Position numbers and translations under genes: made by a program. Below are positions 1 through 49,904 of a stretch of 64,000 nucleotides of DNA, piece by piece. The notes under the pieces were generated by a model that saw only the letters and a program-made list of their open reading frames with translations, was not told the origin of the DNA and made no database searches. How positions within the stretch are numbered: position 1 is the stretch's first letter; every line of letters begins with the position of its first letter. Source of the stretch: an uncultured Porphyromonadaceae bacterium (GTDB taxonomy: Bacteria; Bacteroidota; Bacteroidia; Bacteroidales; Muribaculaceae); the NCBI GenBank assembly GCA_947073495.1, contig CAMTMX010000005.1:1-64000 (forward strand). Reading direction: 5' to 3'.

Positions 1-2
1 TA

Positions 3-137
3 TTTTTTCTGACGAATTGTATCAGCATGGCGAAAGGTCAGTCTGATACGCCACGTCGGGAGACTGTGACCATTACCGGGCAAGTAACCTACTATGAAGG
101 TCTCGGTTGCAGGATATTGAAGAGAGGATGTTGTTGA
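3..137 (+). CDS. possible 3' end of an unidentified (lipo)protein gene truncated by the window edge
   Basis: Frame open from the left edge: FFLTNCISMAKGQSDTPRRETVTITGQVTYYEGLGCRILKRGCC*; short, no recognised family. Confidence 0.25.
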   Translation, partial: FFLTNCISMAKGQSDTPRRETVTITGQVTYYEGLGCRILKRGCC

Positions 138-165
138 TTTTTAGGAATGACGCTGATTTTTAGGA

Positions 166-275
166 GATGTTACTGATTTGAATGAATATGATACGAAAAG
201 AAACGAGAGCGATGAAATATGAAATGACAGCGTTACATTATTAAAGCCGTATTTGAATTATCGTTGTTAATTTTG
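166..275 (+). promoter_or_regulatory. putative activator-dependent promoter upstream of HTCS: conserved element 166-198 plus -7 box TAATTTTG 268-275
   Basis: TAnnTTTG -7 box; upstream 33-mer matches 8667-8699 at 27/33 positions at identical spacing. Confidence 0.5.
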
Positions 276-380
276 TATTCTAATTAAAAACGAGACAATG
301 ATAATAAAAAGAAACGACATTTGTGTATTTGCTTTCGACCATGGGATTGAGACTGTCTTTAAAATGATAATCTATGAGAA

Positions 381-412
381 TTTGGATGGTTGAATCGAAT
401 TCGTTATTTTTG
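381..412 (+). promoter_or_regulatory. putative Bacteroidota promoter (-33 TTTG 381-384, -7 TATTTTTG 405-412) for HTCS
   Basis: Matches TTTG-N20-TAnnTTTG. Confidence 0.5.
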
Positions 413-445
413 CAACAAATAGTGCGATTAAAAATTAATGATATT

Positions 446-480
446 ATTGAAATTGTTTGAACTTTTTTACGGAGATTGAT
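446..480 (+). repeat. GTTTAAAC-type leader element, short form
   Basis: TGAAATTGTTTGAACTTTTTTACGGAGATT resembles 31395-31426. Confidence 0.5.
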
Positions 481-540
481 ATTCTTATGACTTTTTACGT
501 TAAAAAGACCTCTTTCTCAACCTTATGTCATCTTTTCGGA

Positions 541-653
541 AGCTTTTGAACCTTTGATGGGTTGTTTAGCCAGCTGAACCCCCTCTTCAAGTTTCAAAAC
601 CGTCTCTAAAATATGACGAAATCTTGAAAAAGAAAAAAGTTTAAACAACTTCA
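541..653 (-). repeat. GTTTAAAC-type intergenic element, long form
   Basis: Shares CTTCAAGTTTCAAAAC...TGACGAAATCTTG...AAAGTTTAAACAAC with 42291-42370. Confidence 0.6.
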
Positions 654-737
654 TTAAAAGGGATTTTTTACCTGCCGGGCAAATATATCCTTTCGCGATT
701 AGTTAATAAAAAAGTGTTCAATTATCTATAATTTACC

Positions 738-3700
738 ATGAAACGACTTGAATTTATCCTTTATCTCGTTATCTCGGGAATATTTATATGTCTTGAGACA
801 TGGGGAAATACCACTCCGGTGAGAACCGGTCATCTGTTTGATGCTCCTGAAGTTACAATGAGCGATTATACAGATTTTTGCCGTGATAAGGAGGGGTATC
901 TATGGATCGGAACGGAAAGAGGTCTTATAAGATTTGACGGTGCCGGGTATGATATATATCGCCATGAGGAACAGGAAAGCGGTTCCTTGTCTGACAACCG
1001 TATCCTTGATTTGCTCTACGATTCAAAAGGGAGGCTTTGGGTTGGCACTGCCAACGGTCTGAACCTTTATGACCGGGCTTCAGATTCATTTCAACTCATA
1101 AAAATACCCGGAAAAGCTTTTAATGGATATATCATTGGAATGGATGAACAGGTCGACGGTACAATCACGTTTGTATTGTCGGGAGTTGGTTTGTATGTAA
1201 TTGATGATAAGAAGGGGAATGAAATGAATGCTGTCAGGTATATGCCACAGCTTCTAATGGAGAAAGAATTTAATTCACTTAAATGTGCACGCGATGGAAA
1301 AATGTATGTCGGCGACCATTTAGGATCGGTGCATGTCATATTTCCAAACGGAAATGAAAAGGTCATTCCGGTAGGCAATTCCTATATAAATGGAATTGCC
1401 TTAGAGGAAGATGGCAATCTTATCATCTCTCTTCTTAATAACTTATATAGGCTCGACACCAAGACCCTGAAGATTGAAAATTTACAAAATTGGGGGGGTA
1501 ATAGATTGAATATTAGTAAGATGTCAAGCGATGTCATAGGCGGTGATATTTATGTGGGCACTTATGGAGAGGGAGTGTGGCGCATAAGCCCTGCCGATCC
1601 TGTGGTCAAGCCATGTAAAGATTTCTATTCCCCTTTTATGGATATGGGAAGTGCTGAGGTGTCGGCAATCTATGGAGGGGGTGAGGAGAATCTGTGGCTT
1701 GGTTGCAACTATAAAGGGATAATGATGATCCCGTCACAGCGAATCCCATTTGTGTATAGGCGTATGTCGAAATACCTCCCGGGATTTGTAGGAGGCATTT
1801 CTGCATTGGCATCATCAGGCAACAATTTGCTCGCGGCAATAGGGAAAGACAAAATTTGCATTATTTCAGAAAACGGGGAATTAATAAAATCATATAATCT
1901 TCCGGAAGGCGGGACGGCTACTGACATTGAGCCATTAGGTGCCGGTAAATTGCTTGTCGGAGTTGGAAATCAGGGGGTATGGCAATTGTCGTTGACTGAT
2001 GGAAGATGGTCGCGTGTGGTAGATGTGGCGGGAGATTGTCCGTCTATATCTTTGAATTTGTGCAATAAAGAAGATCTCTTTATAGGCGCTCACGGCATAG
2101 GGATCATGTCCTACAATATGGTATCGGGAGAAAAGAAATGGCTTGATGTAGATCCGGAAGGAGACCGCCTTACCAATACTTATACCAATGAGATGGTGAA
2201 GAGCGATGATGATAAATTGTGGATAGGGCTTTATGGCGGTGTTGCATGCTATGATTTAAAGGGGGATTCACTTTTGGAAATCAATCAGGATCCATTCTTA
2301 TCGGGCTCCACCTATACTTTTGCACCTCTCGGGGGAGGAAGAATGCTTGCCGCTACAAGCCATGGACTTATAGAGGTGCATCCTGCCAAGGGAGTGACAG
2401 CTAAATACACTACTATCGACGGACTTACCGATAATGATGTAAGATCAATCACGATTGATAAAAACGGGGGAAGGTGGATAGGGACAATGAGTGGATTGTC
2501 TTATCAGGATCCTGAGACAAAAAACATCTTTGCCTATCATGGCAATTACGGATTGGTGGAAAATTCCTTCCGTCTGTCGGTGATATCAGAATCGGATGGG
2601 AAAGTATATTTTTCAAATGATCAAGGTATCACTTGCTTTATTCCGGAAGATGTATCTTCTCCACAATTCAAGTCAGACGTTAAAATCTCGGCATTATATC
2701 TTAAAGGCATTAGAGTGGCTCCCGAGACCAAGGCGGGGCGCAGGATGGTGATTGAAGGCGACCCTATGAAGCCGACGGTTGTCAATCTACCGTATTCCGA
2801 CAATGCGTTAAGTCTGCGTCTGAGCACTATGGATTTTCGTGATGCAGCAAACATTGTCTATCGGTGGAGAATGGCAGATGTGAGCGAAGAATGGATAGAG
2901 ACTCGTCCCGGGGAAAATGTGATCTATCTTCCTTATCTTGAACCCGGCTCGCATGTTTTGCAGATACAGGCGAAAGAAAACAAAGAGCTGTCTCCGGTCA
3001 CGGAGATGAAAATAAGGATTTCTCCCCCATGGTATCTTTCCACATGGGCGAAACTGTTTTATCTGCTTGTGCTTGCCACTCTTCTTTTATTGGGATGGCT
3101 TGTAATGCAGAAGAAAAAAGAGGAAAAAATCAACGATGCCAAAATTAAATTTTTCATAGATGTCTCTCACGACATACGTTCTCCGATCACCCTTATTCTC
3201 AGTCCGTTGGAATCATTGTTGAAGCGCCCGTTTGATGAGGATGTCAAACGGCAGCTTAAAACGATGCAGCGTAATGGACAAAGAATACTTAGTCTTGTGA
3301 ATCAATTGCTTGATATACGGAAGCTTGATAAGGGGAAGATGCGGTTGTCTTGCCGTAAGACCGATGTCAATTCTTTTGTAGGGGAATTGGTGGACATGTT
3401 TATTCCTCAGGCGGCGGAATGCGGGCTTACTCTTGACTTTGAGCCGAAATCAGAACTCAATAATATTTGGATCGATCGCGATAATATTGATAAAGTGCTT
3501 GTAAACCTTATCTCAAATGCGATAAAATATACGCCGAAAGGGGGGGTCATAAAGGTTGAGACTGAAAAGATGACTGATGAAAAGTTGGGAGAATGTGTCA
3601 GGATCAGTGTCATCGACACAGGAATCGGTCTTGACAGTAAAACGGAAGCGAAAATTTTTGAACGATTCTATAGGGTAAGAGAGAGTCATGCCCCGGCGAC

Positions 3701-4763
3701 TCCGGGATTTGGAATCGGGCTTGACCTGTGCCGACGTCTGGCTGAACTTCATCATGGTTCAATTTCCGGAAAAAACCGTAGGGATGGTGTGAAAGGAAGT
3801 GTATTTTCTATCCGTATCCCTATAGATGAAAGTTTTTACAGTGCCGAAGAATTTCAGATTTCTTACCACTCGGAAGAAGTTAAGGAGGAAGAGGCAAACA
3901 AACATCTCAATATGCCGGAATTGGGCGTCGGTGGAGATTCCGAAAGATTGTCAAGGAAAAAATCAATGATTTCAAAAACGGTTCTTATTGTCGACGATCA
4001 TGAAGAACTGCGTAATTATCTCTGCTACCAGCTGGCATCGTCATATAAAATGATAGGTGCAAAAGACGGGGAGGAAGCTTTGAAAATTATAATGGACAAT
4101 ACTCCCGATATCATCGTCAGCGATGTGATGATGCCCGGTATGGACGGTCTGGAACTTCTGAAAAGGGTGAAGAGCAACTCCACCACCCATCATGTCCCGG
4201 TGATTCTTTTGAGCTCGAGAAATGAACTCGCGGACCGCATGAAGGGGTGGGATAAAGGAGCCGACGGCTATCTTGGTAAACCTTTTAATATTGAGGAGCT
4301 TGAAGTGGTGATAGACACTCTCATCGAAAACAGATTGAGGGTTAAAGGCAAGTTCACCGGTGTGCGTGAGGTAGAGGAGAAGATCAGTGTCCCAAAGGTG
4401 AAAGGGAATGATGAAAAGCTGCTTGAAAAGATTATAAAGGTGATTGAAGACAACATTGATGATTCCGAATTCAATGTGGAGAAACTTTCTATTGAGGTTG
4501 GTATGAGCCGGGCACATCTGCATAGAAAGATGAAAGAGAAAATGGGATTGAACCCAAGTGATTTTATCCGCAATATCAGGCTGCGCAGGGCTTGTGAACT
4601 GCTTCGGAAACCTGACATTGAAGTCACCCAGATAGCTTATCTTGTAGGCTACACCTCGCAGCCGCATTTCTCGACCGCCTTCAAGAAATTTACAGGTTAT
4701 ACACCTTCTGAATACCGTAATAAATGCCAGACGGATTCCATGCCCGACACTTCAGACACATAA
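738..4763 (+). CDS. hybrid two-component system regulator (HTCS): signal peptide, beta-propeller repeats, Y_Y_Y, histidine kinase, receiver, AraC-type HTH
   Basis: Repeats such as GYLWIGTERGL; kinase H-box FFIDVSHDIRSPITLILSPLESL; receiver VLIVDDHEELR...DIIVSDVMMPGMDG; C-terminal AraC HTH VGYTSQPHFSTAFKKFTGYTPSEYR. Confidence 0.97.
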   Translation: MKRLEFILYLVISGIFICLETWGNTTPVRTGHLFDAPEVTMSDYTDFCRDKEGYLWIGTERGLIRFDGAGYDIYRHEEQESGSLSDNRILDLLYDSKGRLWVGTANGLNLYDRASDSFQLIKIPGKAFNGYIIGMDEQVDGTITFVLSGVGLYVIDDKKGNEMNAVRYMPQLLMEKEFNSLKCARDGKMYVGDHLGSVHVIFPNGNEKVIPVGNSYINGIALEEDGNLIISLLNNLYRLDTKTLKIENLQNWGGNRLNISKMSSDVIGGDIYVGTYGEGVWRISPADPVVKPCKDFYSPFMDMGSAEVSAIYGGGEENLWLGCNYKGIMMIPSQRIPFVYRRMSKYLPGFVGGISALASSGNNLLAAIGKDKICIISENGELIKSYNLPEGGTATDIEPLGAGKLLVGVGNQGVWQLSLTDGRWSRVVDVAGDCPSISLNLCNKEDLFIGAHGIGIMSYNMVSGEKKWLDVDPEGDRLTNTYTNEMVKSDDDKLWIGLYGGVACYDLKGDSLLEINQDPFLSGSTYTFAPLGGGRMLAATSHGLIEVHPAKGVTAKYTTIDGLTDNDVRSITIDKNGGRWIGTMSGLSYQDPETKNIFAYHGNYGLVENSFRLSVISESDGKVYFSNDQGITCFIPEDVSSPQFKSDVKISALYLKGIRVAPETKAGRRMVIEGDPMKPTVVNLPYSDNALSLRLSTMDFRDAANIVYRWRMADVSEEWIETRPGENVIYLPYLEPGSHVLQIQAKENKELSPVTEMKIRISPPWYLSTWAKLFYLLVLATLLLLGWLVMQKKKEEKINDAKIKFFIDVSHDIRSPITLILSPLESLLKRPFDEDVKRQLKTMQRNGQRILSLVNQLLDIRKLDKGKMRLSCRKTDVNSFVGELVDMFIPQAAECGLTLDFEPKSELNNIWIDRDNIDKVLVNLISNAIKYTPKGGVIKVETEKMTDEKLGECVRISVIDTGIGLDSKTEAKIFERFYRVRESHAPATPGFGIGLDLCRRLAELHHGSISGKNRRDGVKGSVFSIRIPIDESFYSAEEFQISYHSEEVKEEEANKHLNMPELGVGGDSERLSRKKSMISKTVLIVDDHEELRNYLCYQLASSYKMIGAKDGEEALKIIMDNTPDIIVSDVMMPGMDGLELLKRVKSNSTTHHVPVILLSSRNELADRMKGWDKGADGYLGKPFNIEELEVVIDTLIENRLRVKGKFTGVREVEEKISVPKVKGNDEKLLEKIIKVIEDNIDDSEFNVEKLSIEVGMSRAHLHRKMKEKMGLNPSDFIRNIRLRRACELLRKPDIEVTQIAYLVGYTSQPHFSTAFKKFTGYTPSEYRNKCQTDSMPDTSDT

Positions 4764-4807
4764 AAAGGTGTCGGAATATGGATTTCAAAAATTCATTTAG
4801 ATATAAA

Positions 4808-4848
4808 AATAAACACCCGTGGTCACAATCTTTCCACGGGTGTTTATT
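4808..4848. terminator. bidirectional hairpin terminator between convergent HTCS and GH115 genes
   Basis: AATAAACACCCGTGG / CCACGGGTGTTTATT, 15-bp perfect stem. Confidence 0.85.
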
Positions 4849-4873
4849 GTCCTGTAATCTTGGTAATGGTGTG

Positions 4874-7459
4874 TTATTGGTTTCGGATACAAGGCGACTC
4901 TGTGCCGAATAGATATTCCGGCTGATACCCTCCGCAGTCAACCACGATCTTTTCAAAAACGATACCCGGATCGAGTGGCTTAAGATATAGATACATAGCG
5001 CCATCATTGTCAGGATCGGGCAGCGGAAGTCTGACAATCTTTTCTACAACCCTGCGTGCCACTGTGGGATAAAACACGGAATAGATATTATCGGGATGTT
5101 CGTTAAGGTCACTATTGAAATTTATTTCCTGTTCCCCGGCGCCTTTGAACCCCACTACATACCTGTGTCCCTCCTTGCGAGAGAATGCCAATGTGGATTT
5201 GACCACAATATGCACGTCAACACTGTCTTTCTTTTCGGGTATGGTTATTTTGTATTCCACTGTCGCCCCTTCGGGTGAAGACGTATAAGGGGTGACAGCT
5301 ATTCCCCCAAGAGTTCTTCCCATATCCTTAAGGAGCTTCCATTCGAGATTTTCCGAAGGTGATGAAACTTTGTAGAAGTGAGGAGCCTCGATGACAACCA
5401 TTCCGTCTTTTCCGGTGTGTTGGAATCCTCCTGACAGTCCGTCGGTGTCAGGCACCCTGGAAACTTCCGGCATTTTGTCCGCCGGGAAATCGTCGTTCCA
5501 TCCGGTGTAGCCTATATGTTTCTGAATCATCATCCCGTTCCATTTCCCACCTGCAATACAATTGTTGTAATCGTGCATAAGAAGAGAATCACGTTCAAAA
5601 CATTTTTCCACCCTGTCTGCCCAGATGTTTGCCTCCGGAAGATTTGCCTCCGATTCCCGGCGGTTCATTGCCTGTGAAAAATACATATCATAAAGGTTAG
5701 ACATCAGTTGCACAGGAAACAGGATAAGTTCACGATATGGGTCTTTATATTCATCCGGAAGCGAGATAAACTGACGGAGCGCCTCGGCTTCGAGTCTTGA
5801 AAAATCTCCAGCCACTTTTCCCCATTCCCCCGTGTGGAGATTATATGTGTCGCAGTCAAGAAGTTCGGGAGTGACCCTGCCATTATATTTGCATAATAGA
5901 TTGAATATTCGGGCTGCCTCTTCCGCCTGATCAGGTCCAAGTTGTTGCTCAAAAAATTTCCGGGTATGGAGGTAGAGGTTTTCACTGTCGAACTCCTCAG
6001 GATTCCAAGCCATGTCAAGGAAAAGCGTTATAGGATATTCCATAGGTTTAAGATCGCCGACATTCAGAATCCACATACGGTCTACGCCATAATCATATGT
6101 AAGGCGCATCTGTTCCCACATATTTTGTATTGGGGTACAGTTCAATGTCTTGCTGTTGCGAGGAGCCCCCACATAGTCCACATGGTAATACATTCCCCAT
6201 CCTCCGGGGTGTTTGCGTTCCTGTTCATTGGGAAGACGCCTGACATTTCCCCAGTTGTCGTCGCAAAGAAGTAGAGTCACATCGTCGGGCACACGCAGTC
6301 CGGCATCATAATAGTCAAGCACCTCCTTATATAGAGCCCATACCTGCGGTGTCTGTTTCGGGTCATGTCCTGTCTCTTTGCGGATTATGTTTCTCTGATT
6401 TCTGATGATTTGCTTCAGAAGCTTCACATCGGCATCCGCACTCATTGCCTCGTCGCCGTCACCTCGCATTCCGATAGTCACCACATCCTCTGTGCCTTTC
6501 ATTCTTTTGATACCTTCGGAGAAAAATTTATCGAGAGTTGCACGGTTGGAAGTATAGTTCCATGCTCCGTAATCTTTCCTTTTGCGCGCCCATTCCTGAT
6601 GATTTCTTGCCATCGGTTCATGATGAGAAGTGCCGATTATGATTCCGGTTTTATCCGCAAGCGCGCTGTTTTCCGGGTCATCGGCATAGAATGCCCACGC
6701 CCACATTGCAGGCCAAAGGAAATTCCCTCTTAGCCTGAGAATAAGTTCATACACCCTTGCATAGAAACGGTGGTCACCATAATCTGTGCCATAAGTGTTT
6801 TTGACCCATTTCATAAGACATGGTCCCTCGTCGTTAAGGAATATGCCACGGTATTTCACTGCAGGTTCGCCTGCGGTATAAGTGCCCTTATCAATATAAA
6901 GCTGTTTGTGCTTGACGGGTGGCACATCTGCCCAATCATACCAGGGGGATACACCTATCTGCTCGGAGAGCTCATATAGACCATAGATGGTGCCTCTCCT
7001 GTCGCTGCCGGCAATCACGAGAGCCTCGTCTATTCCCGGAAACGGATTGATGACAGTGGTGAGAAGGTATTTTTCCCTTTTCCCTTCGATATCGGAAGCC
7101 GATAGTTTTCCATTTTTTATCAAACCGGAGATCAGAGGAGTGCCGAAAGTGCCTGCGATGATTGGAAATTTACGGGTATGGATAGAATCGTTGACAGAAA
7201 TAACAGGCGCTGACACACCGCATACCCGTTTGAAATCCAGGGAAACATTGGAGGCAGCGATCCATACCCCTTCGTTATCAGCCGGATCAAGAATCAAAGT
7301 GCCCGGATGGCTTATGCCATTATCAAGAAAAATAAGGGGAAATCTCCCTTCTTCCGGAGATTCTGAAACTATCCCCGGGTGATCAAGTGCCATTACAGGG
7401 TTTGCCATCAGTTGGAGAATGACACACACGAGAATAATTGAAATCGTTTTAATTTTCAT
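4874..7459 (-). CDS. GH115-family alpha-glucuronidase (xylan alpha-1,2-glucuronidase)
   Basis: Signal peptide; GH115-like motifs YRGIFLNDEGP, LRGNFLWPAMWAWAFYADDPENS, GTSHHEPMARNHQEW, LLLCDDNWGNVRRLP. Confidence 0.92.
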   Translation of the reverse strand: MKIKTISIILVCVILQLMANPVMALDHPGIVSESPEEGRFPLIFLDNGISHPGTLILDPADNEGVWIAASNVSLDFKRVCGVSAPVISVNDSIHTRKFPIIAGTFGTPLISGLIKNGKLSASDIEGKREKYLLTTVINPFPGIDEALVIAGSDRRGTIYGLYELSEQIGVSPWYDWADVPPVKHKQLYIDKGTYTAGEPAVKYRGIFLNDEGPCLMKWVKNTYGTDYGDHRFYARVYELILRLRGNFLWPAMWAWAFYADDPENSALADKTGIIIGTSHHEPMARNHQEWARKRKDYGAWNYTSNRATLDKFFSEGIKRMKGTEDVVTIGMRGDGDEAMSADADVKLLKQIIRNQRNIIRKETGHDPKQTPQVWALYKEVLDYYDAGLRVPDDVTLLLCDDNWGNVRRLPNEQERKHPGGWGMYYHVDYVGAPRNSKTLNCTPIQNMWEQMRLTYDYGVDRMWILNVGDLKPMEYPITLFLDMAWNPEEFDSENLYLHTRKFFEQQLGPDQAEEAARIFNLLCKYNGRVTPELLDCDTYNLHTGEWGKVAGDFSRLEAEALRQFISLPDEYKDPYRELILFPVQLMSNLYDMYFSQAMNRRESEANLPEANIWADRVEKCFERDSLLMHDYNNCIAGGKWNGMMIQKHIGYTGWNDDFPADKMPEVSRVPDTDGLSGGFQHTGKDGMVVIEAPHFYKVSSPSENLEWKLLKDMGRTLGGIAVTPYTSSPEGATVEYKITIPEKKDSVDVHIVVKSTLAFSRKEGHRYVVGFKGAGEQEINFNSDLNEHPDNIYSVFYPTVARRVVEKIVRLPLPDPDNDGAMYLYLKPLDPGIVFEKIVVDCGGYQPEYLFGTESPCIRNQ

Positions 7460-7466
7460 AACCTTT

Positions 7467-8510
7467 TCAATTGGCAGATGATAAGGTATTGCTATTTGTC
7501 TGAATAACCGGAAGCATCATTCCGTCCGGATCATAGCGGAGAGTGTCTACGCATACGGATCGCCTTCCGATAGCGCCTTTGTGACCATCTATTTCAAGCA
7601 CAGCGTTATGATAAAATAAATACCATCCGCCGTTGAATTCGATAATTCCCGGATGAATCGTGAAACTGTTTTCAGCCGGACCTGTCAGCTCTCCGCGGGG
7701 AGTCCACGGTCCTTCAATAGAGGGGGAGGTTGCATACGAAATGGTTTCCGTTCCATTCCCGATTGAGGCGTATGTGAGATAATACATCCCGTCTTTCTTA
7801 TGCAACCAGGGACCTTCTACGTATTTGGGCAAATCTATCACCCGGATTTCCCCGTCAATACCTGTCATATCCGGGGTTAGTTTCGCCATAAAACATGTGC
7901 CGTTGCCCCAGCATAACCAAGCATTGTCACCGTCAATCAGCACGGTTGGATCTATGTCGTTCCACCATCCCCGGGCACCATTGTCAGTCATGTTGTCGCT
8001 GACCAATGGTTTTCCGATGGCATCTTTAAATTGCCCTGTCGGAGAATCTGCTACCGCGACACCAATGGCTTTCCCTGTCCAGGGTTCGCCTGCCTGTACG
8101 GTTGTGAAATAATAAAACTTACCGTTCTTTTCCACCACTTGAGATGCCCATGCCTCGCCTGTAGCCCATTTGAAATCTGCCGGGCTGAGCACTGCTCCAT
8201 GGTCTGTCCAGGTCTTCATGTCGTTGGTTGAATAGCAAAGCCATTCTGTGATGTTGAATTCCTTACCCCCGGAGGCAGTATCCTGACCTTCATAATATTC
8301 ATCATGTCCGACATAGAGATACAGCCGTCCGTCGTGTACCATCGGAGCCGGATCTGCAGTGAATTTATCTCTGATAAGGGGATTTCCGTTGTAGACAAAA
8401 GTCTTCAATGAATCTGTGGAACTATCGTTGTCAGCAGTTTTTTTTGCACCTCCGCCACATGCACCGAGAATCAGGAGGCAGCTGAAAGCCATAGGAAAAA
8501 ATTTTTTCAT
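7467..8510 (-). CDS. GH43-family lipoprotein (beta-xylosidase/alpha-L-arabinofuranosidase type)
   Basis: Lipobox LLILGACGGG; TADPAPMVHDGRLYLYVGHDE, NDIDPTVLIDGDNAWLCWGN, YVEGPWLHKKDGMYYLTYA. Confidence 0.9.
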   Translation of the reverse strand: MKKFFPMAFSCLLILGACGGGAKKTADNDSSTDSLKTFVYNGNPLIRDKFTADPAPMVHDGRLYLYVGHDEYYEGQDTASGGKEFNITEWLCYSTNDMKTWTDHGAVLSPADFKWATGEAWASQVVEKNGKFYYFTTVQAGEPWTGKAIGVAVADSPTGQFKDAIGKPLVSDNMTDNGARGWWNDIDPTVLIDGDNAWLCWGNGTCFMAKLTPDMTGIDGEIRVIDLPKYVEGPWLHKKDGMYYLTYASIGNGTETISYATSPSIEGPWTPRGELTGPAENSFTIHPGIIEFNGGWYLFYHNAVLEIDGHKGAIGRRSVCVDTLRYDPDGMMLPVIQTNSNTLSSAN

Positions 8511-8611
8511 GAAATATTATTATTGTGGTTCGATAATTCTGAAATTTCACTAAGATATTCTCATGATCGATTCCCGATTGAGCATATCGAAGTCCGACGA
8601 CGTCCATATCG

Positions 8612-8619
8612 CAAAATTA
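8612..8619 (-). promoter_or_regulatory. putative -7 box (TAATTTTG on minus strand) for GH43-GH115
   Basis: CAAAATTA on + strand about 100 bp upstream of the start codon. Confidence 0.4.
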
Positions 8620-8666
8620 AAGAAAAAAAGTGAAGGAAAGATTCATGTATGTCTTTCAGTTTTTAT

Positions 8667-8776
8667 GATGCTACCGATTTGAATTGATAGGATACGAAGG
8701 GATATGAAAGGTATCCGTTTAAATACGTCTGTATTACATAGATGAGGGTGGGAGGGTCAAATATTAAGTAATTTTG
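8667..8776 (+). promoter_or_regulatory. putative activator-dependent promoter for GH43 gene: element 8667-8699, -7 box TAATTTTG 8769-8776
   Basis: Element aligns with 166-198 at identical distance to the -7 box; no TTTG at the -33 position. Confidence 0.55.
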
Positions 8777-8809
8777 TAAATGAAAAACTAATCTAACTTC
8801 CGTTAAACA

Positions 8810-10444
8810 ATGTCTGTACAAAAACTCATAAAAGGGATAGCTTGTATGGCTTTTGCCGGCTTTGTGCCGGGATTTGCAGAAGCTGAAGCCGTGGTGCCTC
8901 CCGCCACTCAAATGGAATGTGAAACCTCCGGATTCTGCAATCCGGTGATATGGGCGGATGTGCCTGATCCGGATGTGATACGTGTGGGCGACTGTTTCTA
9001 TATGGTGAGCACCACCATGCATCTTATGCCCGGGTGTCCGGTGATGCGGTCGCGCGATCTCGTAAACTGGGAAACCATAAGCTATGTTTTCGATAAACTT
9101 GAAGACACCTCCCGTTACAATCTTGAAGGGGGCACTGTATATGGGAAAGGGCAGTGGGCTACATCCATCCGTTATCGTGACGGACGTTTCTATGTATTGT
9201 TTTCTCCCAACGACGAGCCATATAAATCATATATATATACCACTGATAATCCGGCAGGGGAGTGGACTCTTCTGTGCCGAACAAATCATTTTCACGATTC
9301 TTCCCTACTGCTTGATGACGACGGCAGGGTATTTGTGTTCAGTGGCGGAGGCGATATCCATCTCACGGAACTCAAACCGGATCTGACGGGAATACTTGAA
9401 GGTGGCATAGACAAGGTGGTGATACATCCCGACAGCACCGAGACGGGACTTCATGAAGGCAGCCGTGTGATAAAACATAATGGTAAATACTATGCATTTG
9501 TGATTTCATGGCGTGCGGGCAAGCCGCGCCGTCAGCTTTGCTATAGGGCTGACAACATTGAGGGCCCTTATGAAAAGTGTGTTGTGCTCGAATCCGAGTT
9601 CGGGGGCTTCCCATACGTGGGGCAGGGATGCCTTGTCGACGATCCGGAAGGGAACTGGTGGGGGATGATTTTTCAGGACCGTGGAGGAGTGGGGCGTGTG
9701 CTCACATTGAACCCCTGCACGTGGAAAGACGGATGGCCGATGCTTGGCGACAGCGATGGTAAAGTGCCTTTGAAAGTGAACAAGACCATTGTGCCTGATG
9801 GAAACGCAGGGGTATTGGTGTCAGATGAATTTTCAGATGGGAAGAAATCAATACTTTGGCAATGGAATCATAATCCTGACAACAGCAGCTGGTCGCTGAC
9901 TGATCGTCCGGGCTTTTTGCGTCTCACCACATCAAAAGTGGTGAAAGATATTTTCCATGCCCCAAACACAATTTCCCAAAGAATGGTGGGACCCAGGAGT
10001 GAGGCTGCCATAAGAATGGATGTGAGCAAAATGAAATGTGGCGATGTGGCTGGGCTTTCTGCATTTAACGGGGATTCCGGATTGCTGTCGGTTGTGGCTG
10101 ATAAAAATGGAAAATGGATTGTCGCTTCCACATCTTCAGTAGCTTTCGGTGATAAAAATCATGCTATTGCCGGAGTGACCGATAAGGAGATGGCACGCAT
10201 ACCATTGAAAGGCGACATCGTTCATTTCAAGGTCGCAACAGATTTCAACCCCGGTGAGGATATGGCTGATTTCTACTATAGCCTTGATGGTGAAAACTGG
10301 ACTCCTATCGGAGAAAGATTCAAGATGAGATTTGATTTCTCAAGATTCTTCATGGGCACACGGTTTGCGATATATAATTATGCCACTGAATCTTCCGGCG
10401 GAATGGTAGATATCGACTGGTTTCATGCATCTGTAATTGATTGA
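8810..10444 (+). CDS. GH43-family glycosidase with C-terminal beta-sandwich (beta-xylosidase C-terminal-like)
   Basis: NPVIWADVPDPDVIRVGDCFYMVSTTMHLMPGCPVMRSRDLVNWE; C-terminal SDEFSDGKKSILWQWNHNPDNSSWSLTDRPGFLRL. Confidence 0.93.
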   Translation: MSVQKLIKGIACMAFAGFVPGFAEAEAVVPPATQMECETSGFCNPVIWADVPDPDVIRVGDCFYMVSTTMHLMPGCPVMRSRDLVNWETISYVFDKLEDTSRYNLEGGTVYGKGQWATSIRYRDGRFYVLFSPNDEPYKSYIYTTDNPAGEWTLLCRTNHFHDSSLLLDDDGRVFVFSGGGDIHLTELKPDLTGILEGGIDKVVIHPDSTETGLHEGSRVIKHNGKYYAFVISWRAGKPRRQLCYRADNIEGPYEKCVVLESEFGGFPYVGQGCLVDDPEGNWWGMIFQDRGGVGRVLTLNPCTWKDGWPMLGDSDGKVPLKVNKTIVPDGNAGVLVSDEFSDGKKSILWQWNHNPDNSSWSLTDRPGFLRLTTSKVVKDIFHAPNTISQRMVGPRSEAAIRMDVSKMKCGDVAGLSAFNGDSGLLSVVADKNGKWIVASTSSVAFGDKNHAIAGVTDKEMARIPLKGDIVHFKVATDFNPGEDMADFYYSLDGENWTPIGERFKMRFDFSRFFMGTRFAIYNYATESSGGMVDIDWFHASVID

Positions 10445-10481
10445 ACGTAGAGGCAAATAAAAACTTGTTGACAATATAATT

Positions 10482-11840
10482 ATGAAAAAGTTATTGATAT
10501 TCGGAGCTGTTTTACCTATGGTTATAGGCATGAGTGCCGTCAATCCTGTGGTAAAGACAACATTCACACCCGACCCGGCTCCGTATGTACACAATGATAC
10601 GGTTTACATGTTTACAGGTCATGACGAAGACGACGCACAGTATTTCAAGATGAAAGACTGGCAGCTGTTCTCAACCACTGATATGGTAAACTGGACATAC
10701 AGGGGCACTCCCCTGACAACGGCGGCTTTCAAATGGGCGAAACAGGGTGACAATGCATGGGCTTCGCAGGCAGTGGAGCGCAACGGGAAATGGTACTGGT
10801 ATATCTGTGCCGAAGACACCGCCTGCGGACTGCATGGCATAGGGGTGGCGGTCGCCGACCGTCCCGAAGGTCCTTACAGTGACCCGCTTGGCAAGCCGCT
10901 TGTGCCCGGCTCATGGGGATTCATTGATCCCACGGTATTTATCGACGATGACGGGAAGGCGTATCTTTTCTGGGGTAATAACGGACTGTGGTATGCCGAA
11001 CTGAATCCCGACATGATCTCTTTGGCTTCTGAAGTAAAGCCTGTGGCAGACCTTGACAAGCCTGAGGCGTTCGGACCTCTCCGTCTCAAACATGACTGGC
11101 AACTTGGAAAAAAGGTGATGAAAACAAATTTCGAGGAAGGTCCCTGGCTTGACAAGAGAAACGGTATCTATTATCTTTCTTATGCTGCGGGAGGTGTGCC
11201 GGAACACATGGCTTATTCCACTTCCCGTTCCATACATGGACCATGGAAATATGGAGGCAGAATCATGAACGAGTCTCCAGGAAGTTTCACCATCCATGGT
11301 GGGAATATCCATATCAATGGAAGAGACTTCATGTTCTACCATCAGGGTCTGGCTCCAAACGGCTCAGGTTTCAGGCGTTCGGCTGCAGTGGAGGAGTTTG
11401 AATGGAAAGGCGACAGCATACCGTTCATCCCGTTTACGGATGCCGGTGTTATCAGACCTTTGAAGAACCTCGACCCGTTTTCGACAGTCGAGGCGGAGAC
11501 GATGTCAGACTCATGGGGTGTAAAGACAGACCGCACGGCGGGCACCTCCCATTATCTCACATCTATTCATAATGGCGACTGGACACGCTTGAAAAGTGTT
11601 GACTTCTCAAATGGTGCGTCAAGACTGACAGCCAAGGTGCTAAATATAAAAAATCCGGGTTCCATAGAATTTTTTATAGACGGAGTAGAGAAACCTTTCG
11701 CTGTAGTGCCGGTCGAGAAAAACGGAGATATAAGCGTGGATGTAAATCCAGAGGTAAAGGGAGTTAAGGATGTATATATCCTCTTTAGGGGAGGCGACAG
11801 CGAATTGTTTGATTTCGATTCCTGGCATCTTGTCAGATAG
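10482..11840 (+). CDS. GH43-family glycosidase with C-terminal CBM6-like domain
   Basis: TPDPAPYVHNDTVYMFTGHDED, FIDPTVFIDDDGKAYLFWGN, EGPWLDKRNGIYYLSYAAGG; C-terminal VEAETMSDSWGVKTD...FDFDSWHLVR. Confidence 0.93.
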   Translation: MKKLLIFGAVLPMVIGMSAVNPVVKTTFTPDPAPYVHNDTVYMFTGHDEDDAQYFKMKDWQLFSTTDMVNWTYRGTPLTTAAFKWAKQGDNAWASQAVERNGKWYWYICAEDTACGLHGIGVAVADRPEGPYSDPLGKPLVPGSWGFIDPTVFIDDDGKAYLFWGNNGLWYAELNPDMISLASEVKPVADLDKPEAFGPLRLKHDWQLGKKVMKTNFEEGPWLDKRNGIYYLSYAAGGVPEHMAYSTSRSIHGPWKYGGRIMNESPGSFTIHGGNIHINGRDFMFYHQGLAPNGSGFRRSAAVEEFEWKGDSIPFIPFTDAGVIRPLKNLDPFSTVEAETMSDSWGVKTDRTAGTSHYLTSIHNGDWTRLKSVDFSNGASRLTAKVLNIKNPGSIEFFIDGVEKPFAVVPVEKNGDISVDVNPEVKGVKDVYILFRGGDSELFDFDSWHLVR

Positions 11841-11897
11841 GTCTCCGTTAATAACATGAATTGTCAGTTTTTGCGTATGTGGAAAGGTGTTTGAGGG

Positions 11898-12007
11898 ATT
11901 GTTACAAATGGTAATGGTTTTGAAACATACACGAATCCATATGTCGCGATTAAGAATATGTATGCGACATATTTAAAGGCCTGACAGCAATGTTCTGAGT
12001 AATTTTG
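11898..12007 (+). promoter_or_regulatory. putative activator-dependent promoter for xylA: TGTTAC element at 11900, -7 box TAATTTTG 12000-12007
   Basis: Same phase relation to the -7 box as the HTCS and GH43 promoters. Confidence 0.45.
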
Positions 12008-12086
12008 CAACAGAGACCAACATGTGTTTGGGATAATTGATAAGGTGTTAACAGGTTAATTTGTATATTTTTTATGGATGCTTATG

Positions 12087-12167
12087 AGGTTAGGTTTTAA
12101 CCTTAATTAAGGTATCAAGTTTGTTTTAGGTTACTATTGAGGCGACATTGTTTTGTCGCCTCAATAG
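12087..12167 (+). promoter_or_regulatory. structured xylA leader: alternative pairings at 12087-12113, terminator-like hairpin at 12134-12167
   Basis: ACCTTAATTAAGGT palindrome with competing upstream AGGTT; CTATTGAGGCGACA / TGTCGCCTCAATAG 14-bp stem about 35 nt before the ATG. Confidence 0.5.
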
Positions 12168-12201
12168 AATTTTCAAGATTTTTATTTAAACTATATATAA
12201 A

Positions 12202-13518
12202 ATGGCAAACAAGGAATACTTTCCCTCGATAGGGAAAATCAAGTTCGAAGGCACATCAAGCTACAACCCTCTCGCATACCGCTACTACGACGCTGAGCGC
12301 GTGGTTCTCGGCAAACCGATGAAGGAGTGGCTCAAATTCGCCATGGCTTGGTGGCACACACTCTGTGCAGAAGGTGGCGACCAGTTTGGCGGCGGCACAA
12401 AGAAATTCCCCTGGAACGAGGGTGAGACAGCTCTCGAACGCGCGAAGAACAAGGCTGACGCCGGATTCGAGATCATGGAGAAACTCGGCATAGAATATTT
12501 CTGCTTCCATGACGTGGATCTCATCGAGGAAGGTTCTTCAGTAGAGGAATACGAAAAGAACGTGAAGGATATCGTGGCATACCTCAAGGAGAAGATGCAG
12601 GGCACAAACATCAAGAACCTCTGGGGCACAGCCAATGTTTTCAGCAACGGCAGATACATGAACGGGGCTGCCACAAACCCTGATTTCGACGTTGTGGCAC
12701 GTGCAGCCGTGCAGATCAAGAACGCTATCGACGCCACAATCGAGCTCGGAGGAAGCAACTATGTCTTCTGGGGCGGACGCGAAGGCTATATGAGCCTCCT
12801 CAACACAGACCAGAAACGTGAGAAAGAGCATCTTGCGATGATGTTGAAAATGGCGCGCGACTATGCCCGCAGCAAAGGGTTTACAGGCACTTTCCTCATT
12901 GAACCGAAACCAATGGAGCCTTCAAAGCATCAGTATGACGTCGACACCGAGACTGTAATCGGCTTCCTCAAGGCTCACGGTCTTGAAAAGGACTTCAAGG
13001 TGAACATCGAGGTGAACCACGCAACTCTCGCAGGCCACACATTCGAGCATGAACTCGCCGTAGCAGTCGACAACGGCATGCTCGGCAGCATCGACGCAAA
13101 CCGCGGCGACTACCAGAACGGCTGGGACACCGACCAGTTCCCCATCGACAACTACGAGCTCACCCAGGCAATGATGCAGATCATCCGCAACGGCGGTCTC
13201 GGCAACGGCGGCACGAACTTCGACGCCAAGACACGCCGCAACTCCACCGACCTTGAAGATATCTTCATCGCCCACATCGCCGGAATGGATGCAATGGCTC
13301 GCGCCCTTCTCAGCGCAGCAGACGTGCTTGAGAAATCTCCATATAAGAAAATGCTCGCCGACCGTTACGCATCGTTCGACGGTGGCGAGGGCAAGGAGTT
13401 TGAGGAAGGCAAGCTCACACTCGAACAGCTTGCAGAGATCGGTCGCCGTGTCAACGAACCGGCACTGACTTCCGGTAAGCAGGAGCTTTACGAGGCTATC
13501 ATCAACATGTACGCTTAA
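12202..13518 (+). CDS. xylA: xylose isomerase
   Basis: [67 protein letters not shown]. Confidence 0.99.
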
Positions 13519-44903: not shown

Positions 44904-45884
44904 TCAGTCTGCTCCGTCTATAGTCAGGATATTTCCGTCTTTGTCGTATGTCAGTTCACACACTTTAAGACTTCTCAGCCATGATTTGCCACCTGAAGGG
45001 ACACTGTCATGATGGAAAAGATACCATTTCCCTTCATATTCCACGATGGAATGATGAGTGGTCCATCCCACCACAGGGGTCAGTATCACCCCCTTATAGA
45101 CAAACGGACCGTAAGGGTTGTCGCCTACGGCATAGCAGAGAAGATGGCTGTCGCCTGTGGAGTAAGAGAAATAGTATTTCCCGTTATACTTGTGTACCCA
45201 TGATGCCTCAAAGAAACGGTGGGGATCATTAGCCTTCAAAGGATTTCCCTCTTCATCCACCACCTGCACCGGACGGGGCTCTTCGGCAAACTGATGCATG
45301 TCTTTGCTCAGCCTGACACACCGGCTCGGGAGCGACGGTTCTTCACCTTCCGGAAGTTCTGCCGATTCGAGCGCCTTGTTGTCCCGATAACGCTGAAGCT
45401 GTCCGCCCCACAGTCCCCCGAAGTATAGAAAATAGTCTTCACCCTCCTTTAGCACGCATATATCCATGGAATAGCTTCCCCGGATAGGATCGGGATCGGC
45501 AATAAACGGTCCTTCCGGAGAATCTGCAACCGCCACACCTATCCGGAAAATATCGTTCTTATCCTTCAACGGAAAATACAGATAATACTTTCCATCTTTT
45601 TCAGTGCAGTCACAGTCCCAAAGCTGACGTCCTGCCCAAGGCACATCTTTCATGTCGAAAGCTTTGCCATGGTCAGTCACTTTCCCGGTCATGGGATCGC
45701 CGTCGATAGAAAGCACGTGCATATCTTCCATCACATAACAGTCGCCATTGTCGTTCTCGACATTGTCAAGCTCTATGTCGTGAGAAGGATATATGTATAT
45801 TTTCCCGTTAAACACATGCACGCTCGGGTCCGCCATATAATCTGCAGGGAACAGATAACGTTTCGCAGTTTTTATTGGAGCCAT
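44904..45884 (-). CDS. GH43-family glycosidase without recognisable signal peptide (probably cytoplasmic)
   Basis: YMADPSVHVFNGKIYIYPSHDIE, YSMDICVLKEGEDYFLYFGG, FFEASWVHKYNGKYYFSYSTG. Confidence 0.9.
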   Translation of the reverse strand: MAPIKTAKRYLFPADYMADPSVHVFNGKIYIYPSHDIELDNVENDNGDCYVMEDMHVLSIDGDPMTGKVTDHGKAFDMKDVPWAGRQLWDCDCTEKDGKYYLYFPLKDKNDIFRIGVAVADSPEGPFIADPDPIRGSYSMDICVLKEGEDYFLYFGGLWGGQLQRYRDNKALESAELPEGEEPSLPSRCVRLSKDMHQFAEEPRPVQVVDEEGNPLKANDPHRFFEASWVHKYNGKYYFSYSTGDSHLLCYAVGDNPYGPFVYKGVILTPVVGWTTHHSIVEYEGKWYLFHHDSVPSGGKSWLRSLKVCELTYDKDGNILTIDGAD

Positions 45885-45912
45885 ATCGTATTATTTTTAG
45901 ATCACGTTTAAA

Positions 45913-47037
45913 TTATTTCTCAGCTTCCTCCTCAGCAAGTTCCTTGACCATAAACGGCTTCATTTCATAGTTGCGGTCAAAAAGAAGAGGATAGTCGGTA
46001 CGTCCGTGCATAGGCCAGTCGTTACGCCATGACATACCGTCGTGAGTGCCCCAGAAAGTCACTCTTGAAATAAGGTCGGAATGTTTCTTATAAAGCCGGA
46101 ACACACTTGCCATACGGTCGTTCCATTCCTTGGAGACTTCATCAGGAAGAGAGTCGGGATAAGGATTCTTATTTTCGTTGAAATTGACATTGTCATCAAC
46201 ATTGGCTCCGAAATTGACTGCGGGGAGAGCGGTCATGTCAAGTTCTGTCACCATCACCGACACACCGGCGTTTCCGAGAGCGACAATAGTCTTTTCATAT
46301 TCCTCCATATCAGGATAGTCAATACCTATATGACTCTGCATACCCATACCGTCTATGCGAAGTCCGCGATTTTTCAATTCCCCGATAATGCGTACGTATG
46401 CCTCACGTTTTGCCGGAATAGCCATCGAAAAATCGTTAAGATACAGCTCGGCATCCGGATCTGCTTCATGTGCATATTGAAACGCAAGTGGAATGAACTC
46501 CTCGCCAAGGATGTCATAAAATGGTGTATGACGATAACTGCCGTCATCTTCTATTGCTTCGTTTACCACATCCCAACCATGTATACGTCCCTTATAGCGG
46601 CCCACAATAGTGTGGATATGATCTCTCAGACGCTCCTTAAACACCTCAGCGCTTACATATTTCCCATTTTCATCATACGGGAACCAGGGAGCGAGCTGAG
46701 AATGCCAGACAAGGCAGTGCCCTATCACAGCCATATCCCTCTCTTCTCCATATTTTACAAACGCATCAGCGTCGTCCCAGAAATACCGGTCGGCTTCAGG
46801 ATGAATTTTTTCACATTTCATACAATTTTCCGCCACGACCGAATTGAAATGGAGGCTCACAACTGAATCCGCCTTTTGGTCAAGCCCGTTCACATGGTTA
46901 ACAGGTATAGCGGCACCAATCAAGAAATCATTCTTGAAATGATCTTTGACTGTGACAGTGTCGGCAGTCTTTTCCGACGATCCGCATGCGCTTGCAGTAA
47001 TTGCTAAAAGCGCTAATCCCCAAAACATTGTTTTCAT
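45913..47037 (-). CDS. GH10 endo-xylanase lipoprotein
   Basis: Lipobox ITASACGSS; NCMKCEKIHPEADRYFWDDAD, GHCLVWHSQLAPW, GWDVVNEAIEDDG, VMVTELDMTALP. Confidence 0.96.
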   Translation of the reverse strand: MKTMFWGLALLAITASACGSSEKTADTVTVKDHFKNDFLIGAAIPVNHVNGLDQKADSVVSLHFNSVVAENCMKCEKIHPEADRYFWDDADAFVKYGEERDMAVIGHCLVWHSQLAPWFPYDENGKYVSAEVFKERLRDHIHTIVGRYKGRIHGWDVVNEAIEDDGSYRHTPFYDILGEEFIPLAFQYAHEADPDAELYLNDFSMAIPAKREAYVRIIGELKNRGLRIDGMGMQSHIGIDYPDMEEYEKTIVALGNAGVSVMVTELDMTALPAVNFGANVDDNVNFNENKNPYPDSLPDEVSKEWNDRMASVFRLYKKHSDLISRVTFWGTHDGMSWRNDWPMHGRTDYPLLFDRNYEMKPFMVKELAEEEAEK

Positions 47038-47091
47038 AAATATTTACTGATTATTTGTTAGGTTATATCATTTTTCAATCATTGAAGTTGT

Positions 47092-48516
47092 TTAAACCAC
47101 TTCATTATTCCGCGCTTCAATCTGACGGTTGATATCATCTATCACTTCGTCGTCAAGTTCGTAGCGGGAGATGATAAACATAGCCACGACAAGCAGGATA
47201 GCCGGGATGACGGCTACGAGCCACAAAATTCCCTGTTGTGCGAAAAGGGTCTGCTCCGCAACGTCTTTATCAAACCCTACGAACGCCAATACAAGACCCG
47301 GCACAACTCCACCTAAAGCCATACCTGCCTTATAAAAAATGCCTGTCAAGGCGTTTACAATTCCTGCAATACGTCTGCCATGAGTATATTCTCCGAAAGA
47401 GATAACTTCAGGCACAAGCGCCCACATATATCCTGTGGCGACAATCACGCCGGTAGATTTTACAAACTGTGCCACATACACAAGCCACATCTGCGACTTC
47501 AACGACTCTATCATGGAGACGGCATAAAGCATAGCCATACCGACAATGGCTGTTATAAGGAAAATATGGAACATCCCTTTCTTCCCCACCATTTTCTTTA
47601 TTGCCGGAATCATGGGCATGAAGATAAATGCAGGGATGGAGCCGAGTCCCATGAAGATGGAGAGTTCTCCGGCACTCCCATGGAGATTGTAGTTGATATA
47701 GTATGCTCCGGCAGAGTTTCCTATAGCCATCATGGCAAAAGCAGTGATAAAGAAAAACGCAAGTATACGCAACGGACGGTTATGCACAAATTCCATCCAG
47801 AGATCTGAAACCTTTACATTCTCTGTGGCGCTTTTGTCCATCACCACACGCTCCTTGCATTGCGAGAAACAGAAAAAGAGGAGGAGCATCCCGATACCGC
47901 CATAAAGAGTCATTGTGGAAAGCCATGCGCTGTCGCTTGTCGACATGTCGGAAGTCTCCGACGGATCAAACAATTTCAGTATGATCGGAATGCCCATACC
48001 CACTGCAAGCCCGCCGACATTCGCCATAAACATACGCACTGACGTAAGTTTTGTGATTTCATCCGTATCGCGCGTAAGCGAGGCATTCAAGGCTCCGTAT
48101 GGCACATTTACAAGAGTATAACACATGGAAAGCCCCACATAAGTGACATAGGCATAGAGCAACGATCCGGAAAACCCGTTCCAGAAACAAAGTATAGCGA
48201 ATGCAGTCAGAGGGATTCCGCCTAAAACAAGGTAGGAACGGTATTTCCCCATTTTGGGATCATGCTTGTCGACAAAGGTTCCCACCAATGGATCCCATAT
48301 CACATCTATAATTCTCACGATGAGAAACATCACCGCAGCCACAGCCGGGTCAAGACCGTAGACATTGGTATAGAAAAAGAGGAGATACATGCTGATCGTC
48401 TGGTAGATCAGGTTCTGCGCAAGATCGCCGGACCCGAACCCGACACATTGCAACATCGAAAGCTTATAGAAACCTTTCGACTCGGCGGTTTTTCCCGTGT
48501 TTAAAGCTAATTCCAT
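47092..48516 (-). CDS. GPH-family (MFS) glycoside-pentoside-hexuronide:cation symporter
   Basis: GFGSGDLAQNLIYQTISMYLLFFYTNVYGL, RIIDVIWDPLVGTFVDKHDPKMGKYRSYLVLGGIPL. Confidence 0.95.
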   Translation of the reverse strand: MELALNTGKTAESKGFYKLSMLQCVGFGSGDLAQNLIYQTISMYLLFFYTNVYGLDPAVAAVMFLIVRIIDVIWDPLVGTFVDKHDPKMGKYRSYLVLGGIPLTAFAILCFWNGFSGSLLYAYVTYVGLSMCYTLVNVPYGALNASLTRDTDEITKLTSVRMFMANVGGLAVGMGIPIILKLFDPSETSDMSTSDSAWLSTMTLYGGIGMLLLFFCFSQCKERVVMDKSATENVKVSDLWMEFVHNRPLRILAFFFITAFAMMAIGNSAGAYYINYNLHGSAGELSIFMGLGSIPAFIFMPMIPAIKKMVGKKGMFHIFLITAIVGMAMLYAVSMIESLKSQMWLVYVAQFVKSTGVIVATGYMWALVPEVISFGEYTHGRRIAGIVNALTGIFYKAGMALGGVVPGLVLAFVGFDKDVAEQTLFAQQGILWLVAVIPAILLVVAMFIISRYELDDEVIDDINRQIEARNNEVV

Positions 48517-48566
48517 AATATTAAATTTTATTCGTTTGTCTATACTTATATCCGATCACGCCCATG

Positions 48567-49904
48567 TCATGATTGTCCTGCAGAAGATCCAAACGGGTCG
48601 CTATTTGTGGCAAAGACATGTTTTATACGGATCGGATGGACGCCACGGCAACAGAAACATACCCTATATACTTTCGAGGTGTCAAGCGCTACGATACCGC
48701 TGTCAATATTTTTCATCATCCCGTTGAGTTCCGCCACTATCAGTTTCTTCCCGGCGAATTTCCCTTCATACGATTTTTCATGGATAACCTTGGAATCGGA
48801 GACCCATAACTCTGTATTGTCGTTATCTTCTTCCTCAAGTTCAGCCACGAGATACTTATATCCCGACAAATCGACAGGGACATCATATTCCCAGCCTCCA
48901 AGCCCATTCTCCCCTGCCAAAAACTCTCGGGTGGCAAGTTCAAAAGATCCGGTCGCCCTGAGTGCGGGACTGAAATCTTTCAAATCGAAAACATAATCAC
49001 CTTCCCCCGGTTCAGGAGAAAGGACCACACCTGCCTCCCCATTATATGCAAGAAAGGGATCGGATATCCCCATAGTGGCAAGCATCTCCACTGCATACCT
49101 GCATCCCAGCACCCTATATGCGTGGGAAGTGAAATGCAAACCGTCCCCTTTCTGGGCAAGATCAGCGGAAGACACCACATGGGCAGTGCTCAAAGTCTGT
49201 GGAAGGGTTTGGATAATCGTATTCATCGCTCCACATATCCCTCCCTGCTCCGGAGCGACAACCTCCCCTGCAAGCAGGGGCACAGATTCAGGTGTCAGTC
49301 CAAGGTCGGAAAGAATATTGTCATACAATTTCTTCACTTTCTTACACCACTCCATGTCTCCGTTATTCGATTCCCCCTGATGAAGAAGTATTCCCTTGAT
49401 GACTCCCTCTTTCTGAGCTATTTTCGCACACTCTATTAAACGTCTATAAGGATAGTTGTCGTATGCACGCATAAAATTTCTAAACCATTCTGCCTCAGAT
49501 TCCAGTTCGACAGGATCAAAATCTTTGTCGAGATGCTCGATTTTACATCCACCCACTGCCACGGGAATCACACCGATTCTGACATGTTCCGGAAGATTGG
49601 CAACCATAGTACGCCCGAAATAATCTATCGGAGATAATCCGGTATATTCCCTCACCAATGGAGGTTCAGCCACATACCATTTCCCTTTACATCGCAACTG
49701 ATTGGAAAAATCGGTAGTGGACATAACCAGGAATCTACCGGGCACTTCCTGACGGTCGGCAGGCTCTATCAGGGCGTTCCCTTCCATGTTGGATTGTCCT
49801 ATGCACAGATATATATGGAAATCCGGATCAGGAGCGGCGGAAACGTTGCTCACGCATGCCGCCACAGCAAGAACTATAGACGCTATTCCTTGTAGTATAT
49901 TCAT
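48567..49904 (-). CDS. SASA/CE6-type carbohydrate (acetyl xylan) esterase with extra C-terminal domain
   Basis: IYLCIGQSNMEGNALIEP, VAVGGCKIEHLD, GILLHQGESNN, DGLHFTSHAYRVLG; about 145 unassigned C-terminal residues. Confidence 0.87.
   Translation of the reverse strand: MNILQGIASIVLAVAACVSNVSAAPDPDFHIYLCIGQSNMEGNALIEPADRQEVPGRFLVMSTTDFSNQLRCKGKWYVAEPPLVREYTGLSPIDYFGRTMVANLPEHVRIGVIPVAVGGCKIEHLDKDFDPVELESEAEWFRNFMRAYDNYPYRRLIECAKIAQKEGVIKGILLHQGESNNGDMEWCKKVKKLYDNILSDLGLTPESVPLLAGEVVAPEQGGICGAMNTIIQTLPQTLSTAHVVSSADLAQKGDGLHFTSHAYRVLGCRYAVEMLATMGISDPFLAYNGEAGVVLSPEPGEGDYVFDLKDFSPALRATGSFELATREFLAGENGLGGWEYDVPVDLSGYKYLVAELEEEDNDNTELWVSDSKVIHEKSYEGKFAGKKLIVAELNGMMKNIDSGIVALDTSKVYRVCFCCRGVHPIRIKHVFATNSDPFGSSAGQS

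Follow-up and report, generated by a model that had tools for sequence, protein, structure and literature searches.

Four promoters of a xylan polysaccharide utilization locus (PUL) in an uncultured Porphyromonadaceae bacterium of the gut (GTDB family Muribaculaceae) carry the same ladder of TGnnAC half-sites, repeated every 21 bp and starting at -100, -79, -58 and -37 from the -7 box, and this ladder very probably serves as operator for the hybrid two-component system (HTCS) that the locus encodes and that would respond to xylan. The identification is made because the tandem 21-bp repeats match the form predicted for HTCS sites by Ravcheev et al. (2013, PMC3878776). The window analysed comprises the first 64 kb of the 68,217-bp contig C5 (CAMTMX010000005.1), which belongs to a 3.5-Mb draft genome; as the draft is 91.5% complete, members of the regulon may be missing. 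The locus is a xylan PUL, since it combines the HTCS, GH43 and GH43-CBM6 enzymes and xylA with a GH43-SusC-SusD run that contains GH10 genes. The candidate binder, a protein of 1341 amino acids encoded at 738-4763 (plus strand), contains Reg_prop, Y_Y_Y, HisKA, HATPase, REC and HTH_18/AraC domains, so that an HTCS with an AraC-type DNA-binding domain lies in the same PUL as the sites.

A sequence-only reading of the window had noted that TGYTAC at 168, 8669 and 11900 begins exactly 100 bp before a TAATTTTG box at 268, 8769 and 12000, respectively, and all of these coordinates hold. When the promoters are written in 21-base rows, the half-sites fall into the ladder, whose rung spacing corresponds to exactly two DNA turns. 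The HTCS promoter (ladder 168-251, plus strand) contains TGTTAC (168), TGATAC (189) and CGTTAC (231), with a degenerate rung at 210; its box (268-275) lies 470 bp before the HTCS ATG. In front of the regulated pair formed by GH43 (8810-10444) and GH43-CBM6 (10482-11840), both on the plus strand, the ladder (8669-8752) consists of TGCTAC (8669), GGATAC (8690) and TATTAC (8732), lacks the -58 rung and is followed by the box at 8769-8776. The most complete ladder (11900-11983, plus strand; 15 of 16 letters) precedes the xylose isomerase-like gene xylA (12202-13518, plus strand) and shows all four rungs, TGTTAC (11900), TGAAAC (11921), TGTCGC (11942) and TGCGAC (11963), before the box at 12000-12007. 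The half-site found 63 bp after the first one in these three promoters, which had been read as a second element, is present as described; it is the fourth rung of the series 0, 21, 42 and 63 (3 x 21) rather than a separate element. A SusR-type operator, whose two sites are separated by 67 or 77 bp, was ruled out by the 21-bp period.

A scan upstream of the SusC gene beyond position 64,000 had been named beforehand as a check, and it revealed a site in the same 100-bp register. This fourth site, TGATACGGATTTGAACGTATGTGAAAC (C5:66253-66279, minus strand), came out of a genome scan with the consensus at up to two mismatches, beside weaker matches that include a near match at C96:40, at a contig end. 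It precedes the GH43-SusC operon, 2.3 kb past the end of the window, and its ladder (66279-66217, minus strand) has TGATAC, TGAAAC and TATTAC at -100, -79 and -58; the +42 half-site thus occurs instead of the +63 one, and there is no -37 rung. The TAATTTTG box (66179-66172, minus strand) again begins exactly 100 bp downstream of the first half-site. The genes behind this promoter form a co-directional run, GH43-SusC-SusD-SusC-SusD-GH10-esterase-MFS-GH10-GH95-GH127, whose part in the window spans 38902-64000 (minus strand) and which, judging only by its short intergenic gaps, would be a single transcription unit. Just upstream of the GH43-SusC promoter lies a second full-length xylose isomerase gene (438 amino acids; 66522-67838, minus strand; entry L012), preceded by the apparent end of a xylulokinase gene.

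The pattern shared by the four promoters is real and far above chance, as is confirmed by its specificity in the genome. The composite TGNNAC-N15-NGNNAC-N73-TANNTTTG has four exact matches in 3.5 Mb, all of them these four sites, whereas a control whose spacer is one base longer matches exactly once, on a different contig. When spacings of 40-200 were tried in 216 kb of the organism's own DNA, matches appeared at 100 only, and among lags of 12-40 combined with varying distances on contig C5, at least two matches were obtained only at lag 21 with distance 100. Moreover, across 51 TAnnTTTG boxes on that contig, the four sites score 11-15 of 16 ladder letters and the remainder at most 8. Exact sites are thus found only at xylan or xylose genes and at the HTCS gene, which is the enrichment that the initial proposal of a xylan regulon called for. 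With one mismatch allowed, composite matches in the genome are about as frequent as those of a reversed control.

Conservation in relatives, likewise anticipated, proved to be far above background. For 45 relatives of the GH43-SusC gene, which the protein search drew mostly from Muribaculaceae, promoters were lined up by whichever TAnnTTTG lies closest to the gene, blind to the ladder, and redundant ones were removed until all were below 90% identity. Among 26 Muribaculaceae promoters (that of the window excluded), 19 have TGNNAC at -79, 15 have it at -100 and 14 at -58, and no other offset exceeds three. Of 11 promoters from Bacteroides, Phocaeicola and Parabacteroides, 8 have it at -100 and 6 at -79, and the majority-letter consensus is TGTNAC for each of the four rungs. 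Autocorrelation of base frequencies has its maxima at lags 42 and 21 for Muribaculaceae and 21 and 42 for the Bacteroides group. In particular, the Muribaculaceae half-site consensus at -100 and -58 is TGTTACAAAT-N4-A, with A at +14 in 88% and 96% of promoters, while the rungs at -79 (TGANAC) and -37 (TGANA) are weaker. GH43a orthologs also keep half-sites at -100 and -79, so that the element is conserved upstream of two sets of orthologous regulated genes; the box in the GH43a table was picked to maximise the ladder score, and statistics were therefore taken from the GH43-SusC set alone.

The xylA promoter shows where this constraint ends. Between the window and the close relative G105, only 2 of 135 alignment columns differ through the ladder and promoter, and 22 of the next 65 do; the boundary just past the -7 box fits what would be expected near a transcription start. 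Further downstream, still before the ATG, the xylA leader contains a strong hairpin (12134-12167; CTATTGAGGCGACA...TGTCGCCTCAATAG) that is identical in G105 though nearby leader sequence varies. The leader folds far better than shuffled sequences (z = -4.6), and positions 1-13000, the hairpin included, gave no Rfam match; the hairpin is a possible attenuator.

The association with xylan genes extends through the genus. The exact composite ending in TTTGC was searched in 111 genomes, with the reversed pattern as control, and yielded 31 matches (30 in the table of places) in 23 genomes against none for the control. A match is present in 18 of the 23 genomes with a GH43-SusC locus and in 5 of the 88 without one (Fisher p = 3.6e-12; 1.4e-11 without the organism's own genome). 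The targets are mainly GH43-SusC and GH43a, and also include GH43-CBM6, xylA, an unidentified secreted protein, an esterase and another SusC; a handful of matches, among them some in G096 and G116, seem to be unrelated. A similar ladder with TGTGAC, GCAAC and GTTAC rungs occurs at -100, -79 and -58 in L230 (G063, contig C81) and L244 (G114, contig C43), and in L244 it precedes a SusC gene. As neither G063 nor G114 has a GH43-SusC locus, this ladder may be that of a different HTCS.

The promoters that carry the ladder also differ in type from the usual one. A good TTTG is missing at the -33 spacing in all four, as the sequence-only reading had stated for the three that it saw. At least three of the four letters of this element are present in 4 of 41 GH43-SusC orthologs and in 29 of 72 comparison promoters (p = 0.0005), the latter being drawn from regions around other HTCSs, which are not an ideal background. 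Such depletion fits an activator that would take over the -33 contact. Two features typical of AraC/XylS-type sites accompany it: the half-site has two subsites, TGTTAC and AAT with an A at +14, and the proximal rung, in three of the four promoters, begins 37 bp upstream of the -7 box and so near the -35 element. Near the would-be -33 element, about 26-20 nucleotides before the -7 box, a CGCGCG-like stretch recurs in Muribaculaceae GH43-SusC promoters (e.g., L074, L075 and L079).

Taken together, these observations support the interpretation of the ladder as an operator bound by the HTCS. From what is known of the family, xylan oligosaccharides are presumably sensed by the HTCS in the periplasm. 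The protein would then phosphorylate its own receiver domain, and its AraC-type domain would dock on direct repeats of the half-site TGTTAC-N2-AT-N4-A, with one monomer per 21 bp and all monomers on one face of the helix. Because stronger and weaker rungs alternate, two tandem dimers are suggested, the proximal of which would abut RNA polymerase and substitute for the missing -33 TTTG contact. The regulon in this organism would comprise GH43-GH43/CBM6, xylA, GH43-SusC-SusD with the genes that follow and, perhaps, the HTCS gene itself. It can be proposed more tentatively, at slightly below an even chance, that HTCS-activated promoters of xylan PULs across Bacteroidales form one rigid, phase-locked complex of four half-sites (-100/-79/-58/-37) and two tandem dimers that replaces the -33 contact, and not the single dimer that has until now been proposed for HTCSs.

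Several observations weigh against this explanation. Rung use varies, in that three promoters have the -37 rung and the fourth has the -58 rung instead, and orthologous promoters are not independent of one another. In most Bacteroides relatives, the HTCS gene lies outside the fetched flank of the GH43 locus. Finally, relatives do not conserve the ladder of the HTCS promoter (166-275), and this includes one whose HTCS shares 70% identity. The regulon originally proposed, HTCS, GH43-GH43-CBM6 and xylA, is thus supported and extended by GH43-SusC, and its HTCS-promoter copy is the part that conservation does not back.

The same flank data bear on the rival that survives best, in which the ladder is real and is bound by a different activator of the AraC/XylS family, e.g., a one-component xylose regulator. 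Sites with 21-bp direct repeats are general to AraC/XylS proteins, the cytosolic xylose gene xylA is among the targets, and HTCSs other than that at 738-4763 are present in the genome. However, where the Muribaculaceae loci offer enough flank, an HTCS (38-53% identity) lies on the upstream side of GH43-SusC, in many cases directly next to it, and P. vulgatus has a matching HTCS (45290-49210) not far from its GH43 locus. The HTCS gene of the window carries the ladder too, HTCS sites have been predicted to take this form, and among the upstream open reading frames of the Bacteroides loci inspected, none was recognised as a stand-alone AraC gene. A different activator is therefore unlikely. It is highly improbable that the likeness reflects recent duplication of one promoter segment and not selection for a regulator site. 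The 33-mers at 166 and 8667 do agree at 27 of 33 positions (the xylA copy at 19 of 33), as first counted and again on a recount by hand, but the sequences between the rungs differ among the four promoters, while rung letters and register persist across families and across non-orthologous genes of relatives. The global regulator BT4338/Cur (consensus TATGTTnTAnAACATA) is just as improbable a binder. TGTT resembles its half-site and Cur acts on sugar-use genes (PMC11501099), yet the elements are 21-bp direct repeats confined, in this genome, to one PUL and its xylA, and inspection of the four ladder sites against the published consensus found no TGTT-N-AACA palindrome. A chance match picked by eye is scarcely credible: short motifs recur in AT-rich Bacteroidota promoters, and the three-way consensus, with its three exact matches in the window, reaches five at up to three mismatches against 1.94 expected, but the out-of-sample fourth site, the specificity of distance and lag and the 31 matches versus none in the genus all argue otherwise.

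With HTCS binding retained as the preferred explanation, autoregulation of the HTCS gene is its weakest part, because the HTCS-promoter copy is not conserved. A second HTCS promoter, TTTG-N-TAnnTTTG at 382-412 (plus strand; box at 405), has no ladder (score 5/16) and is a candidate basal promoter. In five relatives (L064, L065, L074, L075 and L079), two divergent half-sites form a palindrome between the HTCS gene and GH115. On the GH115 side, a TTTTAC half-site lies 100-101 bp (once 79 bp) before the GH115 box, whereas on the HTCS side a TGTTAC half-site lies 46-47 bp before the HTCS box, a different but conserved phase. In these relatives, GH115 is thus in register or off by one base, and HTCS autoregulation would follow another arrangement or be lineage-specific. 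The GH43/GH115 promoter of the window (box 8619, minus strand) shows no in-phase ladder.

Whether the register applies beyond xylan was addressed in 38 Bacteroides-group and 20 Muribaculaceae HTCS regions. The SusC/box search gave too few strict TAnnTTTG boxes in the Bacteroides-group regions, and lag-21 similarity across promoters near other HTCSs was too noisy for scoring. Near two other HTCSs, the promoters of 11196 (plus strand, in L214) and of 11154 (plus strand, in L219) repeat TTGTCCACC at 21 bp, about 51 and 30 bp before a TAATTTTG box. These data hint that a fixed register may be general for HTCS promoters.

Among the PUL regulators of gut Bacteroidota, HTCSs form a major class, and what is known of their operators is mostly predicted. 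A letter-level candidate operator with a fixed promoter register is gained here; the register rule may be useful for annotating PUL promoters in uncultured Muribaculaceae, and its exact conservation makes the regulon directly testable. By including cytosolic xylA, the regulon would tie periplasmic xylan sensing to xylose metabolism.

The closest known counterparts are the predicted HTCS operators of B. thetaiotaomicron. The motifs predicted there are direct repeats with an average of 21 bp between centres and were read as dimer sites; they lie upstream of PUL operons and belong to HTCSs with an AraC-type domain (PMC3878776). The direct repeats described here have the same distance of about 21 bp between conserved sites. 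They differ in having three to four rungs in a fixed -7 register instead of two conserved sites, which is a quantitative extension and not an exclusion from the type. In B. theta, DNA binding by an HTCS is phosphorylation-dependent (PMC11253607). XynR of Prevotella bryantii and BACOVA_03437 of B. ovatus are alike in role, being HTCSs that control a xylan PUL, and the available part of the source describes no operator for either (PMC8002723). The Pm promoter of XylS, a member of the AraC/XylS family, has box A/box B half-site direct repeats with the same 21-bp period (15-bp repeats and a 6-bp spacer), which XylS binds as a dimer contacting RNA polymerase; Pm is, however, a sigma-70 promoter with one half-site pair, and XylS is a one-component cytosolic regulator (PMC5481539). 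Thus, the tandem-repeat type of HTCS operator is known, and what is new here is an architecture that is longer and stricter than the published two-site description.

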